Shown here: positions 32,129 to 39,405 of the stretch, piece by piece | Layout: every line of letters starts with the position of its first letter | How positions within the stretch are numbered: position 1 is the stretch's first letter | Position numbers and translations under genes: made by a program | The notes under the pieces: model-generated | Told to the model about the DNA's origin: nothing | What the model saw: the letters and a program-made list of their open reading frames with translations, nothing else | The model's database searches: none | DNA from: Schizochytrium sp. TIO01 | Taxonomy: Eukaryota > Sar > Bigyra > Thraustochytrida > Thraustochytriidae | Length of the DNA: 64,000 nt | Assembly (NCBI GenBank): GCA_004764695.1 | Contig: SMSO01000034.1 | Span: 4,534,501-4,598,500 of the forward strand | Direction of reading: 5' to 3'

Positions 32129-33688
32129 ATGGTACTCCGCAGCCTGGCGGCCGTGCTCGCAGGACCCGGTGCCGCGGCGGCTCGCATGCTGCTCTTGGCA
32201 AGGCAGGCCGCTGACGCTTCCAGCAGCGAGGAGTCTGTCGCTGATGACACCTTCGGCGTAGCAAATCTCACGGATCTCGAGACGTTTTACGTGTTCTGCG
32301 GCGTCACGCTCGCAGTCGCCGCCTCGCTTCTGGTTTGCCTTGGCCTAGCACTGCAAAAGGTCTCATTGTGCGCTCCTGGGAATGATCATGTGGCACCTGT
32401 GAAGCAGCCAAAATGGATGGCAGGGTTTCTGTGCATGCTCCTCGGAAACATCTTGGACTTTATTGCCTTTGGTATGGCACCGCAGAGCCTTCTTGCTCCT
32501 CTGGCTGCCCTTTCCTTGGTATGGAACTTGTTCATTTCATCCTACATGCTCGAGGAAACCTATGACAAAAATGATATCCATGCTGTGGCGCTCATCTTCT
32601 TTGGTACAGCAGTCACGGTCATTTTCTCCAACCACAGAGAACATGGATACACCCTAGAAATGCTGCGTGAACTGTACAGGAAGGAGCGCATGTATGCGTA
32701 CTTTGTCATCGTGCCTCTGCTTCTCATGGCACACTATTATCTTATCCATTATGTGTCCACGCGCGAACTGCAGGGAACGATGTGGAAGCTCGTCGAGCTC
32801 GTGGGATGGTGCGGTTTTGCCGGTATCACCGGCGGTCAGAGTGTGCTGTTCGCAAAGTCTACCGTCGAGCTCCTGAAGGATGCTGCCCAGGGGGACGCGG
32901 TCTTTTATGATTTTGACACTTATCTCATTATCTGCGCCATGATCGCTTGCCTTGTTACCCAAATTACTTTTCTGAATGGCGCAATGAAGCGCTTTGACCA
33001 GCTTTATGTCATGCCAATGTACCAAAGCTACTGGTAAGTTTACCTCCTCTCTTTTGTTGACGTTCTACTGCGATGCAGATATATTTTCTTCAGTTCTACA
33101 CGATCAAACAACGAAACAAATGGTAGTCCTATGCTCTACCATTAACAACCTCGCAAGACACAACACGAAGACTAACCCAAATCACTCTCTCCTTCATGGA
33201 AATTGCGCTCCTCAAAATAATTTATCTGAGTACGTCAATTGTGTTTTCACACATACAGGATTATTTCAGGCGTGATTGGCGGGCTTGTTTACTTTGGCGA
33301 GTGGGAAGAAGCAACCACAACACAAATGAATATGTTCATTGTAGGAACCCTTATCACGCTTGCCGGCCTTTTGGTCCTCACACGAAAGGAAAACCACACA
33401 TTAAATAACTCTGGCCCGCAGCCTGGCTTTGATGTCCTGCCGAGTCGGAAAATTAGTGTGGATAGCGCATATGGTTTCGCTGAAGACAATAGCAGCGAGT
33501 CTATTGGAGATGACGATCCTTCTGATCATGTCTTGGAGATGTCAGAATCAGTCGCACACTCTGCTTATGCGAATGATCGCCGGAAAAACTCTTTCCGAAA
33601 GCTGAGCCACGTTTCCTCTGCTGGAAGCCTAGATGCCGGCGAGGATCATCGCCGAAGAACATCTTCATACACTGTCGCTGCTTTATAA
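32129..33688 (+). CDS. NIPA-type magnesium transporter (copy 2), two exons
   Basis: Exon 1 is 32129-33033 and exon 2 is 33259-33688. The intron (33034-33258, 225 bp) has a GTAAGT donor and ACAG acceptor. The split TGG codon in YQSYW-IISGV restores the family motif exactly, giving a 444-aa protein. It shares with the 20.4-kb gene the blocks GMAPQSLLAPLAALSLVWN, GGQSVLFAKSTVELL and VTQITFLNGAMKRFDQL, so the two are paralogues. The N-terminus is longer (about 50 residues before the first common membrane segment) and begins with an Ala/Leu-rich stretch that could be a signal or an extra helix. The C-terminal 120 residues are Ser-rich and hydrophilic. Family knowledge points to Mg2+ transport in plasma or endosomal membranes; specificity is inferred. 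Confidence 0.9.
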
Positions 33689-35870: not shown

Positions 35871-36392
35871 ATGAAGTTTCGGGATTGCATTTACCTCGGT
35901 CTGGGTGTTCTCATGGCCGTGTGGATCGTGACGATTCACAGGTTTGAGATGAACACCAGTGACATGATTGATAGCGTCGAGGCTATTGGCACAACCATCA
36001 TTGATCGCAGTGGCATCCGTGGAGCAACCTCATCGAATACCGAGGAACCGCTCAATAGCGTCCAGTTTTTTATTCTCGTGGGCCGCAAGAACTGCGAGTA
36101 TACAAAGGTTGCAGATGGTCTGCTTGACAGGCTCGTGGAGACCTATCCGAACGACGTCATGCAGTACAAATGGAACGCCAAGTCTAAGCAAGAGTTTGAC
36201 TCTTGGTTAAGCGCACGCAAAACAACTAACCAGGTGCCAGAGTACCACACCACTTCGCCTGTCATTTTCTTGCGGATCGGCGAGTCCCGTAAATTTCTTG
36301 GTGGCGTTGACCAGCTTTTGAAATATGTGGAAATTCGCTTTCCCAGAGTTCAATGTGCAGAAGGAGATTGCACAAAAGAACATGATCGATGA
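35871..36392 (+). CDS. Signal-anchored glutaredoxin-like ORF, probably 5' part of the next gene
   Basis: 173-codon frame. Residues 7-22 are one hydrophobic helix preceded by Lys and Arg, the pattern of a type II signal anchor placing the rest in the ER/Golgi lumen. Residues about 64-155 resemble a glutaredoxin/thioredoxin fold: strand VQFFILVGRKNCEYTK with a single Cys75 where the active site lies, a cis-Pro strand SPVIF (129-133) and FLGGVDQLLKY (142-152), which matches the GG motif of glutaredoxins. After that the frame yields 20 nondescript residues and stops. The TTL-M14 frame (+1) opens at 36322 and overlaps by 68 bases. Dropping one C from the CCC at about 36343-36345 joins the two frames into one long protein. 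Same-strand overlap is unusual in eukaryotic nuclear genes, so a single gene is the better reading. Confidence 0.65.
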   Translation: MKFRDCIYLGLGVLMAVWIVTIHRFEMNTSDMIDSVEAIGTTIIDRSGIRGATSSNTEEPLNSVQFFILVGRKNCEYTKVADGLLDRLVETYPNDVMQYKWNAKSKQEFDSWLSARKTTNQVPEYHTTSPVIFLRIGESRKFLGGVDQLLKYVEIRFPRVQCAEGDCTKEHDR

Positions 36393-39300
36393 CATTAAAG
36401 ACACGGATCTTGGGGCATCTGCATCATTACCGAAGCAGAGACGCAAGCCGTCTGCTGGTGGCAACCATGAATACAGTGATGATAAAAGCGAAGACGAGAC
36501 CATCCTCCGCAAGGACGGTGATGCCCTTCCTGAGGACCCCGAGCCACCCATTGACCGTGTGGTTAACAATCCTAACAGCTTGATTGATAACCAGGAGCAA
36601 GTGCCTATCTCTGTATCACCATCTCAGGAAGTTTTTATGCGTTCTCCATACAATCAGCTCCAGCAGCAAGTCCCCCTGCGCAAAAAGAGTATCGTCTCTA
36701 CCTACCATATTACTGAGAAGCGTGTAACCAACTACCGACCAATGATTGACTTTTTGCGTGTGCGCGGTTGGTCAAATATGCCCCAGGCGCCTCTACTGGC
36801 GACATGGATTCTGGTTCAGGATCAAAAGACCGCTGCCTATGTTCTTACTCGCTACCATAAGTCAATTGTAAATAACATCGGATACGGCGGTCAAAGCTGT
36901 TTTGGTGGAACCAAGGGATATCAACTTCGCTGTCGCTCTGAATTTGCAACCAAGTTTGGTTGCTCGTATGATGATCTTCACGTTCAACCCCCGCAATATC
37001 GTCTATGGGAGGAGCCAGAATGCCGAAAGTTCTTTGATCATGTCTGTGTTGAGTCACCCGAGGCCATGTGGATTGAAAAGCCTAGTGGCGGCCAACATGG
37101 TGCCGGTATGCGTGTTCATTCAGGTTGCGAGAAGCTTAGGGAAAGTTACTCTACCTGCACAGGTGCAGGCAAGAAGTTCATTGCTATGCCGTACTTGTCA
37201 CCAGCATTATTGTCAGGCCACAAGTTTGATGTACGCTCTTACCTTCTTATTGCTAGTCTTGATCCTCTTCTCGTGTTCTACCATGATGGATTTGCTCGTA
37301 AGGCAGGTAGCAAATACACCTCTGATACCTCGGATGTCAATGCTCATATTACAAACGCCGAGTCGCAGACTTCAGAAGATCACTTCTATGAATTCTCCAG
37401 ACTAGGAAAAGTACTCCACGAGGAGTCTGGTTTCCCTGCTGACTACATGCAGCGTGTGTTCCGCCAGCACGCAATGCGTGTGCAACGGTACGTCTTCCAT
37501 GCGTCACGGCAGACGATGAAGTTGCGCAAAAAGGGTGTTTACCAGATCTTTGCACTTGACTGGATTATTGATGATGACGGTGGCATTCACATGCTTGAAG
37601 CCAATTCTAACCCTCTTGTCACGCTTTACAAGGATATGAAAGAGGAGTTCACAGAGACATGGGACAGCATGGTTGACCTTGTGCTCAAAGTGCAGACCGC
37701 GCCTGCAACACTTTTCTCGCAAGCACATCCTGAGCTTATTACAGAGCCCCCCGAGAAGCGCTTTGAGTACCGTAACTGGCACCTTATCTTCAGCGAGCTT
37801 GAGGAGCGTCAGAACCAAGAAACGTTCAACCCATGTGAAATTAATATTAAGCCTTTTAGTCTCAAGGCCGAAGGTAAACAATTCCCCTCTACTAAGACTA
37901 CGTCCAGCCTACCGTCATCAATTCCTGGCGCCGCTACTACTGCTACCACTAACGTTGGTTCATCCGTTGCTGCTGTGACCCCGAGCTTGCGTGAGTCCAG
38001 CCCCGCGCAAGTGACAACTGTGCCGGGCCCTGACTCCAGAATGTCCTCGGCTACATCTGGCGCTGCTTCAGTGAGTACAGTATCCTCGGTGGCCCACCCT
38101 TCTGCACCCGGGGCAGTAGTTGCGAACCAGCCTCAAGAAACGCCGTATCAAATCACTGCCTCTGAGGTTCGCGAGGCTATTCAACTCGGTGCATCCCGTG
38201 CTTGTGTTCCTATGGACTTTACGAGCCCTACCTTTGAACAATGCGTTCGCATTGATCGTGGTTTTGGCCTTGATGATCATGCGACTCGCTGCCATTTTGG
38301 TGATGAGAACTACTTTTATGCTATTGAACCAACTCTTAAACCTGGAGCAAAACGTTCCAACTGCTACCCGATTGTTCTTGTCGTGGCTGGTGTTCATGGA
38401 AATGAGCATGCTGGTGTTGTTGCAGCAAACTTTATTCGTCGCAAGTGGACTCTGGAGAATGCCCGCCTTGTGGTTGTAGAGCGTCTCAATCCTAAAGGCA
38501 CTGGCAAGGGCCGCTACATTCCTAAGGTCCCTGTTGCTGAGCGCGACTTAAACCGCAACTTTCCCGTGTCTGGACCGGTGGGAACACTTGCCAATCAGAT
38601 CTGGAGCGTCGTGGCCAAACTTCAGCCGCATATTTTCATTGACCTGCACGAAGGCTGGGGTGTCTACAACCGCTTGAAGGCAAATAAAGGCAATGGACCT
38701 CTCGTTGGCAACCCATCGTTCAGCAAAGGAAGCTCTATCATATCTACAGAGCTTGCACAGCCACTGGCTAAGTACATGATCAATAAGGTGAACGACTTAA
38801 CTGTGCCAGACGCGACAAAGCACTTTCTCAGCATTACGCCTCCTATTGACTCGGGATTGGCAAGTATGATCCACCGTTCGTTCAAATCTCTCAATATGGT
38901 TCTCGAAACTACCTCGAAGGGTCAAACACTTCATCTTCGGGCCCAGCAGCAGCTTGTCATGGTTGGGGCATGCATGTCACTCTTAGGATTGACACCCAAG
39001 AACTTTGATGCTCGTGAGGGCTTCGATGCTTCGCAGGCCTGCTTGGCTGGCACTGAGAAATGCATCTTAGCTTACCCTGGCGATATGCCGTACAACTCGG
39101 AGGATAACATTGCAAAGCTTCTCAACCAGGTAGACGAAGCAGCAAAGCAGGAGGAAGAGTTCAAGAATAATCCCGTGCAGGAGCTCGAGGATGAAGCAAC
39201 ATCGGAGCAGCGCATGCAAAAAGAACAAGATGACTTTGAGGATGCAGAGTACGGCAATGGAGCCGAGGAGCCAGCAAGCAGTGGTGTTGATGGCGAGGCT

Positions 39301-39405
39301 ATGGCCGAGATTCCTGATGAAGAACCTGGTTTGAGCTTGGAGGAAGAGTCCCCAGAGAACGCTGACAACGATGAACTTGTACTTGAGGAGGAGATTTCCT
39401 CATAA
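36325..39405 (+). CDS. TTL (tubulin-tyrosine-ligase-like) plus M14-type metallopeptidase fusion
   Basis: 1026 codons from an ATG at 36325, single exon. Residues about 120-460 are a TTL-type ATP-grasp ligase: MWIEKPSGGQHGAGM (near 248), HKFDVRSYLLI (near 299) and FALDWIIDDDGGIHMLEANSNP (near 415-430, metal/ATP ligands). TTL enzymes add Tyr, Glu or Gly to proteins. After a Ser/Thr/Ala/Pro linker (about 535-615), residues about 680-900 form an M14/AstE-AspA-like zinc hydrolase: HGNEHAG (first His and Glu), DLNRNFP, DLHEG (second zinc His, near 773), and a downstream ET motif (near 860) that could supply the catalytic Glu. These enzymes remove terminal amino acids or acyl groups. The tail is strongly acidic. 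So one chain carries an amino-acid ligase and a hydrolase of the carboxypeptidase fold. The probable upstream signal anchor and glutaredoxin-like part would place it in the secretory pathway, where tubulin is not the substrate. Substrate unknown. Confidence 0.85.
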   Translation: MWKFAFPEFNVQKEIAQKNMIDDIKDTDLGASASLPKQRRKPSAGGNHEYSDDKSEDETILRKDGDALPEDPEPPIDRVVNNPNSLIDNQEQVPISVSPSQEVFMRSPYNQLQQQVPLRKKSIVSTYHITEKRVTNYRPMIDFLRVRGWSNMPQAPLLATWILVQDQKTAAYVLTRYHKSIVNNIGYGGQSCFGGTKGYQLRCRSEFATKFGCSYDDLHVQPPQYRLWEEPECRKFFDHVCVESPEAMWIEKPSGGQHGAGMRVHSGCEKLRESYSTCTGAGKKFIAMPYLSPALLSGHKFDVRSYLLIASLDPLLVFYHDGFARKAGSKYTSDTSDVNAHITNAESQTSEDHFYEFSRLGKVLHEESGFPADYMQRVFRQHAMRVQRYVFHASRQTMKLRKKGVYQIFALDWIIDDDGGIHMLEANSNPLVTLYKDMKEEFTETWDSMVDLVLKVQTAPATLFSQAHPELITEPPEKRFEYRNWHLIFSELEERQNQETFNPCEINIKPFSLKAEGKQFPSTKTTSSLPSSIPGAATTATTNVGSSVAAVTPSLRESSPAQVTTVPGPDSRMSSATSGAASVSTVSSVAHPSAPGAVVANQPQETPYQITASEVREAIQLGASRACVPMDFTSPTFEQCVRIDRGFGLDDHATRCHFGDENYFYAIEPTLKPGAKRSNCYPIVLVVAGVHGNEHAGVVAANFIRRKWTLENARLVVVERLNPKGTGKGRYIPKVPVAERDLNRNFPVSGPVGTLANQIWSVVAKLQPHIFIDLHEGWGVYNRLKANKGNGPLVGNPSFSKGSSIISTELAQPLAKYMINKVNDLTVPDATKHFLSITPPIDSGLASMIHRSFKSLNMVLETTSKGQTLHLRAQQQLVMVGACMSLLGLTPKNFDAREGFDASQACLAGTEKCILAYPGDMPYNSEDNIAKLLNQVDEAAKQEEEFKNNPVQELEDEATSEQRMQKEQDDFEDAEYGNGAEEPASSGVDGEAMAEIPDEEPGLSLEEESPENADNDELVLEEEISS

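Follow-up and report, generated by a model that had tools for sequence, protein, structure and literature searches.

A fusion of a TTL-type ligase and an M14 hydrolase with a probable membrane anchor in the thraustochytrid Schizochytrium sp. TIO01

The window analysed here, a stretch of 64,000 nucleotides from Schizochytrium sp. TIO01 (assembly GCA_004764695.1, contig SMSO01000034.1; C33:4534501-4598500 of the searched genome, which comprises 64.06 Mb in 37 contigs), carries an open reading frame (ORF) in which a TTL-type ATP-grasp ligase is followed by a zinc hydrolase of the M14 superfamily (Table 1). An initial annotation of this ORF, hereafter the enzyme ORF, had described the two enzymes as a writer and a possible eraser of amino-acid tags on one uninterrupted frame, and all the motifs that it quoted were located there: MWIEKPSGGQHGAG (37066-37107), HKFDVRSYLLI (37219-37251) and LEANSNP (37594-37614) in the ligase, and HGNEHAG (38395-38415), DLNRNFP (38545-38565) and DLHEG (38641-38655) in the hydrolase. 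Both domains were recognized by Pfam above the curated cut-offs, TTL at aa 240-433 (E 1.8e-22, 80.4 bits; cut-off 20.1) and AstE_AspA_cat at aa 683-776 (E 6e-8, 32.9 bits; cut-off 25). A second ORF, at positions 35871-36392, overlaps the first ATG of the enzyme ORF (36325) by 68 nt in a different frame and encodes a predicted transmembrane (TM) segment followed by a small domain resembling glutaredoxin (Grx).

Table 1. Features of the locus (positions in the window)
Feature	Position	Strand	Evidence
Probable 5' coding part: TM anchor and MDH1B-like thioredoxin/glutaredoxin-fold domain	35871..36344	+	Codon score, AlphaFold2 (AF2), Foldseek
Predicted N-terminal TM anchor, aa 5-23	35883-35939	+	Maximal Kyte-Doolittle hydropathy (KD) 1.75 at aa 5; flanking charge +2 / -3
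Predicted MDH1B-like thioredoxin/glutaredoxin-fold domain	36048-36344	+	AF2 model, Foldseek
Zone of the frame change (frame 0 before, frame 1 after; phase shift of one base)	36339..36392	+	Codon model, end of Grx helix
TTL + M14 ORF	36325..39405	+	1026 codons, without stop; Pfam matches, codon scores
TTL-type ATP-grasp ligase domain	36709..37860	+	Pfam TTL, family profile, residue tables
Ser/Thr/Pro/Ala-rich linker between both enzymes	37861..38145	+	Frame 1 log-odds 0.13 and 0.11
M14-superfamily zinc hydrolase domain	38146..39012	+	Pfam AstE_AspA_cat, residue alignment, profile search
Acidic C-terminal tail	39214..39402	+	24 D/E within the most acidic 60 residues

The fusion is real at the ORF level. 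With a codon model whose training set comprised ten paralog ORFs and excluded the window gene, we obtained positive log-odds for frame 1 in all 13 bins of 240 nt between 36351 and 39470, linker included, with all other frames of both strands being negative over the same range, bar one reverse frame that reached 0.02 in a single bin. The two bins covering the linker were positive in frame 1 only, the five other frames being negative, and a fusion artefact at this place is ruled out by the continuous coding scores. Because the frame is open, both Pfam families are matched and the coding scores run through the linker, the union of ligase and hydrolase on one frame that the initial annotation had claimed is sound.

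The ligase domain retains the TTL catalytic residues K252, D302, R304, N344, D412, E425 and N427, among which the lysine, the FDxR motif, the aspartate and the E-x-N motif are those that handle ATP and Mg in this family. Its family profile matched TTL itself (3tig, E 3.7e-30) and 5vlq, which we take to be TTLL3 (E 1.2e-29). In the hydrolase domain, the M14 residues H691, E694, N743, R744, H775 and E861 are present, and none of the six varies across the nine aligned sequences (the alignment omits L039, at the eighth bacterial locus found below, where the ORF runs off its contig); H691, E694 and H775 are the predicted Zn ligands, E861 is the likely catalytic residue and N743/R744 probably form the conserved pair. 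A loss of the ATP-grasp and zinc ligands, which the initial annotation had considered, is thus not what the residue alignments show: both sets are kept.

By sequence, the hydrolase resembles AstE/AspA and M14 enzymes of the MpaA/REP34/Csd4 type. All 30 PDB sequences retrieved by its profile at E<=1 are M14/AstE-type enzymes, and this mostly bacterial profile favoured MpaA (E 4.7e-10), REP34 (4.4e-9) and AspA-like entries. An AF2 model of the domain was weak (pLDDT 53.6), and the 34 Foldseek matches that it gave at E<=1e-3 all belong to the M14 superfamily; rows for MpaA and AspA are absent among the 50 listed by VIA-align, which we did not count as evidence. NCBIfam equivalogs scored far under their cut-offs in the enzyme ORF (24.3 versus 157 for MpaA and 19.2 versus 180 for aspartoacylase), and PF04952, the C-terminal barrel-sandwich hybrid domain of AstE/AspA that the initial annotation had listed for checking, is absent from it at E<=1; it is present in paralog L031. 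CCP-like bacterial entries tied with many other M14 enzymes, both in the profile search and in the fold comparison on the weak model. We rejected a CCP-type eraser, since no special kinship to CCPs stood out in these comparisons: the assignment to M14/AstE-AspA-like hydrolases is borne out by Pfam and the residues, but these do not mark the domain as a CCP deglutamylase.

Scanning prokaryote genomes with the M14 alignment, by a short-peptide-pattern method that can miss relatives, returned eight loci, labelled as Myxococcales or other deltaproteobacteria. No match to the TTL profile occurs in the 766 ORFs of all eight loci, and ATP-grasp is absent among ten ORFs flanking the bacterial M14 relatives (the ten, two of them without any family, were drawn from 28 non-core ORFs listed at seven of the eight loci). 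Scans of the same kind detected no relative of the whole enzyme ORF in prokaryote genomes and none of the TTL or M14 alignment in viral contigs. Two M14 relatives stand in other contexts: a bacterial one (L044:1972-2631) lies directly before a transglutaminase-like gene, and in L029 (C24:5069975-5070508) of the present genome an AstE_AspA catalytic domain is preceded by a long extension that looks SPX-like by eye, an assignment that we do not claim, as Pfam found no SPX there.

The initial annotation had started the gene at ATG 36325. Its open frame stands, but the true start is probably another one than this ATG, as the overlapping upstream ORF is itself coding and brings an anchor and a third domain. 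Frame 0 is the sole forward frame with positive coding log-odds across the upstream ORF, with a mean of 0.197 over 149 codons, compared with -0.87 and -1.63 for the remaining forward frames; the model behind this mean penalizes stops heavily and included the window gene from 36424 onwards in its training. A model trained without the window gene gave 0.19 and 0.17 for frame 0. We conclude that the upstream ORF probably belongs to the enzyme gene, so that the protein would read TM segment, Grx-like domain, TTL and M14.

Structure prediction, proposed by the initial annotation, was as confident for the upstream domain (pLDDT 94.1, pTM 0.84) as it was weak for the M14 domain. Among the 50 Foldseek matches listed of 1359 in total, the model came closest by TMq to the N-terminal domains of MDH1B (9d2f_F, TMq 0.76, rank 8 by E-value) and PPIL6 (8j07_S, TMq 0.77, rank 12), the other 48 falling between 0.51 and 0.71; the model thus points with confidence to a thioredoxin fold, nearest among these matches to the MDH1B/PPIL6 N-domain. 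By sequence the resemblance is weak, with E 0.31 to the N-terminal domain of MDH1B and E 0.015-0.10 to three relatives in the same genome, one of which (L036) matches MDH1B at E 2.4e-4. The window domain and the three genome relatives align with common HxxSP and GG positions. The dithiol CxxC is absent from the window domain and CEYT (CxxT) stands in its place, so that a monothiol role is possible. In L038:1-1788 (minus strand) the same Grx-like domain, there without the cysteine of its CxxC region, is followed by a pyridine nucleotide-disulphide oxidoreductase, an arrangement resembling thioredoxin-glutathione reductase.

How the two frames are joined is less clear. The last modelled helix of the Grx-like domain ends near 36338, and frame 0 is therefore coding at least to there; switch points between 36321 and 36348 were about equally likely under the codon model that included the window gene. 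An intron scan returned 124 phase-compatible GT-AG pairs (donors 36200-36392, acceptors up to 36700), and among the 60 shortest, which were inspected, there was no convincing intron joining the frames. Those sparing the modelled Grx helix use the donors GTTCAA or GTGCAG, unlike the GTAAGT of the neighbouring gene, whose intron (225 nt) runs GTAAGT...ACAG; the best-looking donor, at 36289 (58 nt), would remove the GG motif and the last helix of the Grx-like domain. An assembly error, ribosomal slippage or unusual splicing may account for the phase change.

In the genome, the enzyme ORF is matched best by nine paralogs of its TTL domain and by L014 (43%), a paralog of its M14 domain; among the matches listed, none spans both domains. 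Of 39 matches, these nine, all at E 9e-21 or better, rank highest for TTL, and two of them are second domains, from L015 and L016. Several pieces of one gene are counted among the 44 TTL matches in the genome. All nine carry an N-terminal TM segment (KD>1.6). A quick tree was built from 37 TTL domains, those shorter than 190 aa (L059, L061, L065) being omitted, and in it the window domain and its nine paralogs formed one group (SH-aLRT 91), with an inner five comprising the window domain, L010, L011, L012 and L020 (SH-aLRT 96). An N-terminal TM segment is also present in 7 of 30 other TTL ORFs (L026, L027, L053, L054, L058, L065 and L066); L003, L008, L052 and L059 have almost no sequence before the TTL domain, so that theirs is not assessable. 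Six of these seven are in the tree, four of them in one distant group together with L048 and L052, and a single clade of all TM-bearing TTLs was rejected by the approximately unbiased (AU) test (p 1e-9), from which it follows that anchoring was gained more than once or lost.

Two members of the group have altered active sites: in L017 the TTL glutamate and asparagine are replaced, and in L020 these two positions read D and T and the KFD is missing. Both are probably pseudoenzymes, to judge by these residues; both retain the four group cysteines described below. L015 (C36:3283332-3287282) and L016 (C33:2157383-2161261) are TM-bearing proteins in which a single frame, 1,400 and 1,320 codons long, respectively, encodes two tandem TTL domains.

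Several features of the anchored group bear on its compartment. The side preceding the TM segment is the more positive one in 10 of 11 tested sequences. Four cysteines (C213, C233, C278 and C504) are invariant in all ten members of the TTL group, and the same columns in 21 other TTLs (L059 and L061 omitted) hold one cysteine at the first column and none at the other three. N-glycosylation sequons are depleted after the TM segment in 12 sequences (the enzyme ORF, the upstream ORF to 36344, the nine TTL paralogs and L014): 13 were counted versus 41.7 upon shuffling in 60-residue blocks, and none of 400 shuffles was as low. The reversed motif was at expectation (42 versus 42.7). The enzyme ORF alone has no sequon, with 6.0 expected. 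For 23 TM-less TTLs the count was 75 versus 81.7 (81 of 400 shuffles as low); L048 (KD 1.36) and L052, a short ORF, belong to this set and fall among TM-bearing TTLs in the tree. For the other TM-bearing TTLs it was 15 versus 24.8 (8 of 400). PMC5562741 reports that buried sequons have been lost from proteins that came to enter the secretory pathway, and suggests that sequon density can indicate topology. Because TM segment, charge bias, cysteines, sequon depletion and Ser/Thr/Pro-rich linker point the same way, the lumen of the secretory pathway is strongly suggested as the best-supported place for the enzyme domains. The tubulin and CCP setting of the initial annotation is consequently not upheld, the TTL group being membrane-anchored, cysteine-conserved, sequon-depleted and apparently luminal, and the M14 domain showing no special tie to CCPs.

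A number of observations weigh against this placement, or against the full architecture built on it. As assembled, the anchor ORF and the enzyme ORF lie in different frames. L013 has the opposite charge bias around its TM segment, that of the M14 paralog L014 is borderline (KD 1.53), and many rows of the other TTLs are gapped at the cysteine columns. Low sequon counts also tend to occur in the short parts before the TM segment (3 versus 5.6; 60 of 400 shuffles), and the upstream ORF holds one sequon, with 1.0 expected. The same paper (PMC5562741) notes a higher average number of sequons in secretory proteins than in other proteins, and for this reason we treat the depletion as supporting, not decisive. 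The Grx-like domain matches no Pfam family at E<=1, and its best curated match, TrbB, is far under the cut-off (16.1 versus 132 bits). Seven of the nine rows of the M14 profile are bacterial, the AF2 model of that domain is the weak one given above, and the TTL-M14 fusion was found once, in this single genome.

The whole is best explained, in our view with somewhat better than even confidence, by a luminal, membrane-anchored ligase-plus-trimmer for secreted proteins or peptides. One gene would encode a type II membrane protein with a short N-terminal anchor and its remaining domains on the luminal side, in the order MDH1B-like Grx-fold domain, TTL ligase, flexible Ser/Thr/Pro linker, M14 hydrolase and acidic tail. 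The ligase would most likely activate a carboxylate with ATP and attach glutamate, or a similar amino acid, to peptides or proteins that are secreted. Acceptors of this class, or of one close to it, would most likely have residues removed or trimmed by the hydrolase, and chain length would be set on one enzyme. A ligation-trimming enzyme is a fair proposal because both domains lie on one frame with the checked catalytic residues kept, and this much of the writer-and-eraser idea is supported, although its tubulin-type setting is not; which amino acid is added, on which substrate, and whether both activities share it, we infer only weakly. If the two activities are not opposed in this way, the M14 domain might instead prepare the acceptor, by deacylating it or clipping its end before the ligase adds, or both domains might act on unrelated luminal substrates. 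We regard this as rather unlikely: the hydrolase does resemble amidase/deacylase-type members (MpaA, AspA/AstE-like) as much as carboxypeptidases, and its lone paralog L014 exists without a ligase, and nothing decisive stands against it, physical fusion suggesting linked action but not its order.

The two other readings dispense with the lumen or with activity. A soluble TTL-M14 protein starting at ATG 36325 could act as a cytosolic switch on tubulin or other cytosolic proteins, in the style of the tubulin code; the enzyme ORF indeed opens with an ATG, has no TM segment of its own (maximal KD 1.37) and retains its catalytic residues, and TTL enzymes are established as acting on tubulin. Its nearest paralogs, however, are all TM-anchored, its 1026 residues are free of sequons, the group cysteines are conserved, a coding ORF overlaps its ATG from upstream and its M14 part shows no special kinship to CCPs, and because of the apparent compartment we consider this reading improbable. 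Still less credence attaches to a pseudoenzyme or decaying gene, in which one domain would be inactive, or the copy frame-disrupted, and no dual activity would exist: the frame change at the 5' end and the lost catalytic residues of L017 and L020 are what one would expect of it, but the window TTL and M14 domains keep every catalytic residue checked and 1026 codons remain open with coding bias. Returning to the luminal ligase-plus-trimmer, we tentatively extend it to the whole group: its ten TTL proteins, of which two are probably inactive and one is fused to a trimming hydrolase and a thioredoxin-fold module, may all be anchored in the membrane on the luminal side, may form the first TTL family at work in the secretory pathway and may write and edit amino-acid side chains on secreted or cell-surface proteins. 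That the acidic tail could serve as acceptor of the ligase or as a modification target is speculation.

Elsewhere in the window, the neighbouring gene (32129-33688) encodes a multi-pass membrane protein, NIPA-like by eye, and removal of its intron at 33034-33258 joins its two ORFs into one open frame. PfaD is a mark of the fatty-acid synthases of thraustochytrids. Two near-equal PfaD-family matches in the genome, L067 (C4:589107, E 1.6e-201) and L068 (C30:1474872, E 6.0e-201), suggest, by sequence, two polyunsaturated fatty acid synthase loci.

TTL enzymes are known to tag proteins reversibly with amino acids in the cytosol and in cilia. If the luminal reading is true, the system would be a luminal counterpart of the tubulin code, extending this tagging chemistry to secreted proteins, and the ligase would depend on a luminal supply of ATP and amino acids. 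It would also be compact enough for both addition and trimming to be assayed on one purified protein. As thraustochytrids are in industrial culture and can be genetically modified, gene removal is practical.

Among the matches listed in the open-licence PMC literature, at the level of titles and abstract openings, there was none describing the order TM, Grx-like, TTL and M14, in line with the remark of the initial annotation that it knew of no described family with the ligase-hydrolase order, and none describing a TM-bearing, sequon-depleted TTL group; a thraustochytrid tubulin tyrosine ligase is named in a passage of PMC7698632, solely as a gene induced by cold. With the TTL and TTL-like family (PF03133; 3tig, 5vlq, TTLL7 4ylr, TTLL6) the window protein has in common the ATP-grasp core and its residues, and it adds a probable membrane anchor, the four group cysteines, sequon depletion, an apparently luminal side and the fusion to M14 and Grx-like domains. 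Bacterial RimK-type ligases belong to a different family, although they share with TTLs the ATP-grasp superfamily and the chemistry of amino-acid addition. RimK and TTLs are compared in PMC4431377. The HxxE...H metal motif, the N-R pair and the catalytic glutamate are common to the hydrolase and to other M14 enzymes (AstE/AspA PF24827, MpaA, REP34, Csd4/M99); unlike AstE/AspA, it has no PF04952 among its Pfam matches at E<=1 and is fused to a ligase in a eukaryote. The CCP/AGBL deglutamylases, chemically the kind of eraser that had been envisaged, share the M14 superfamily with it. The N-terminal Grx-like domain of MDH1B and PPIL6 matches the fold modelled for the window copy, which carries CxxT rather than CxxC and would differ in being membrane-anchored and in preceding a ligase. 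Each of the fold families is thus known, and it is the architecture and the apparent compartment that are unusual.

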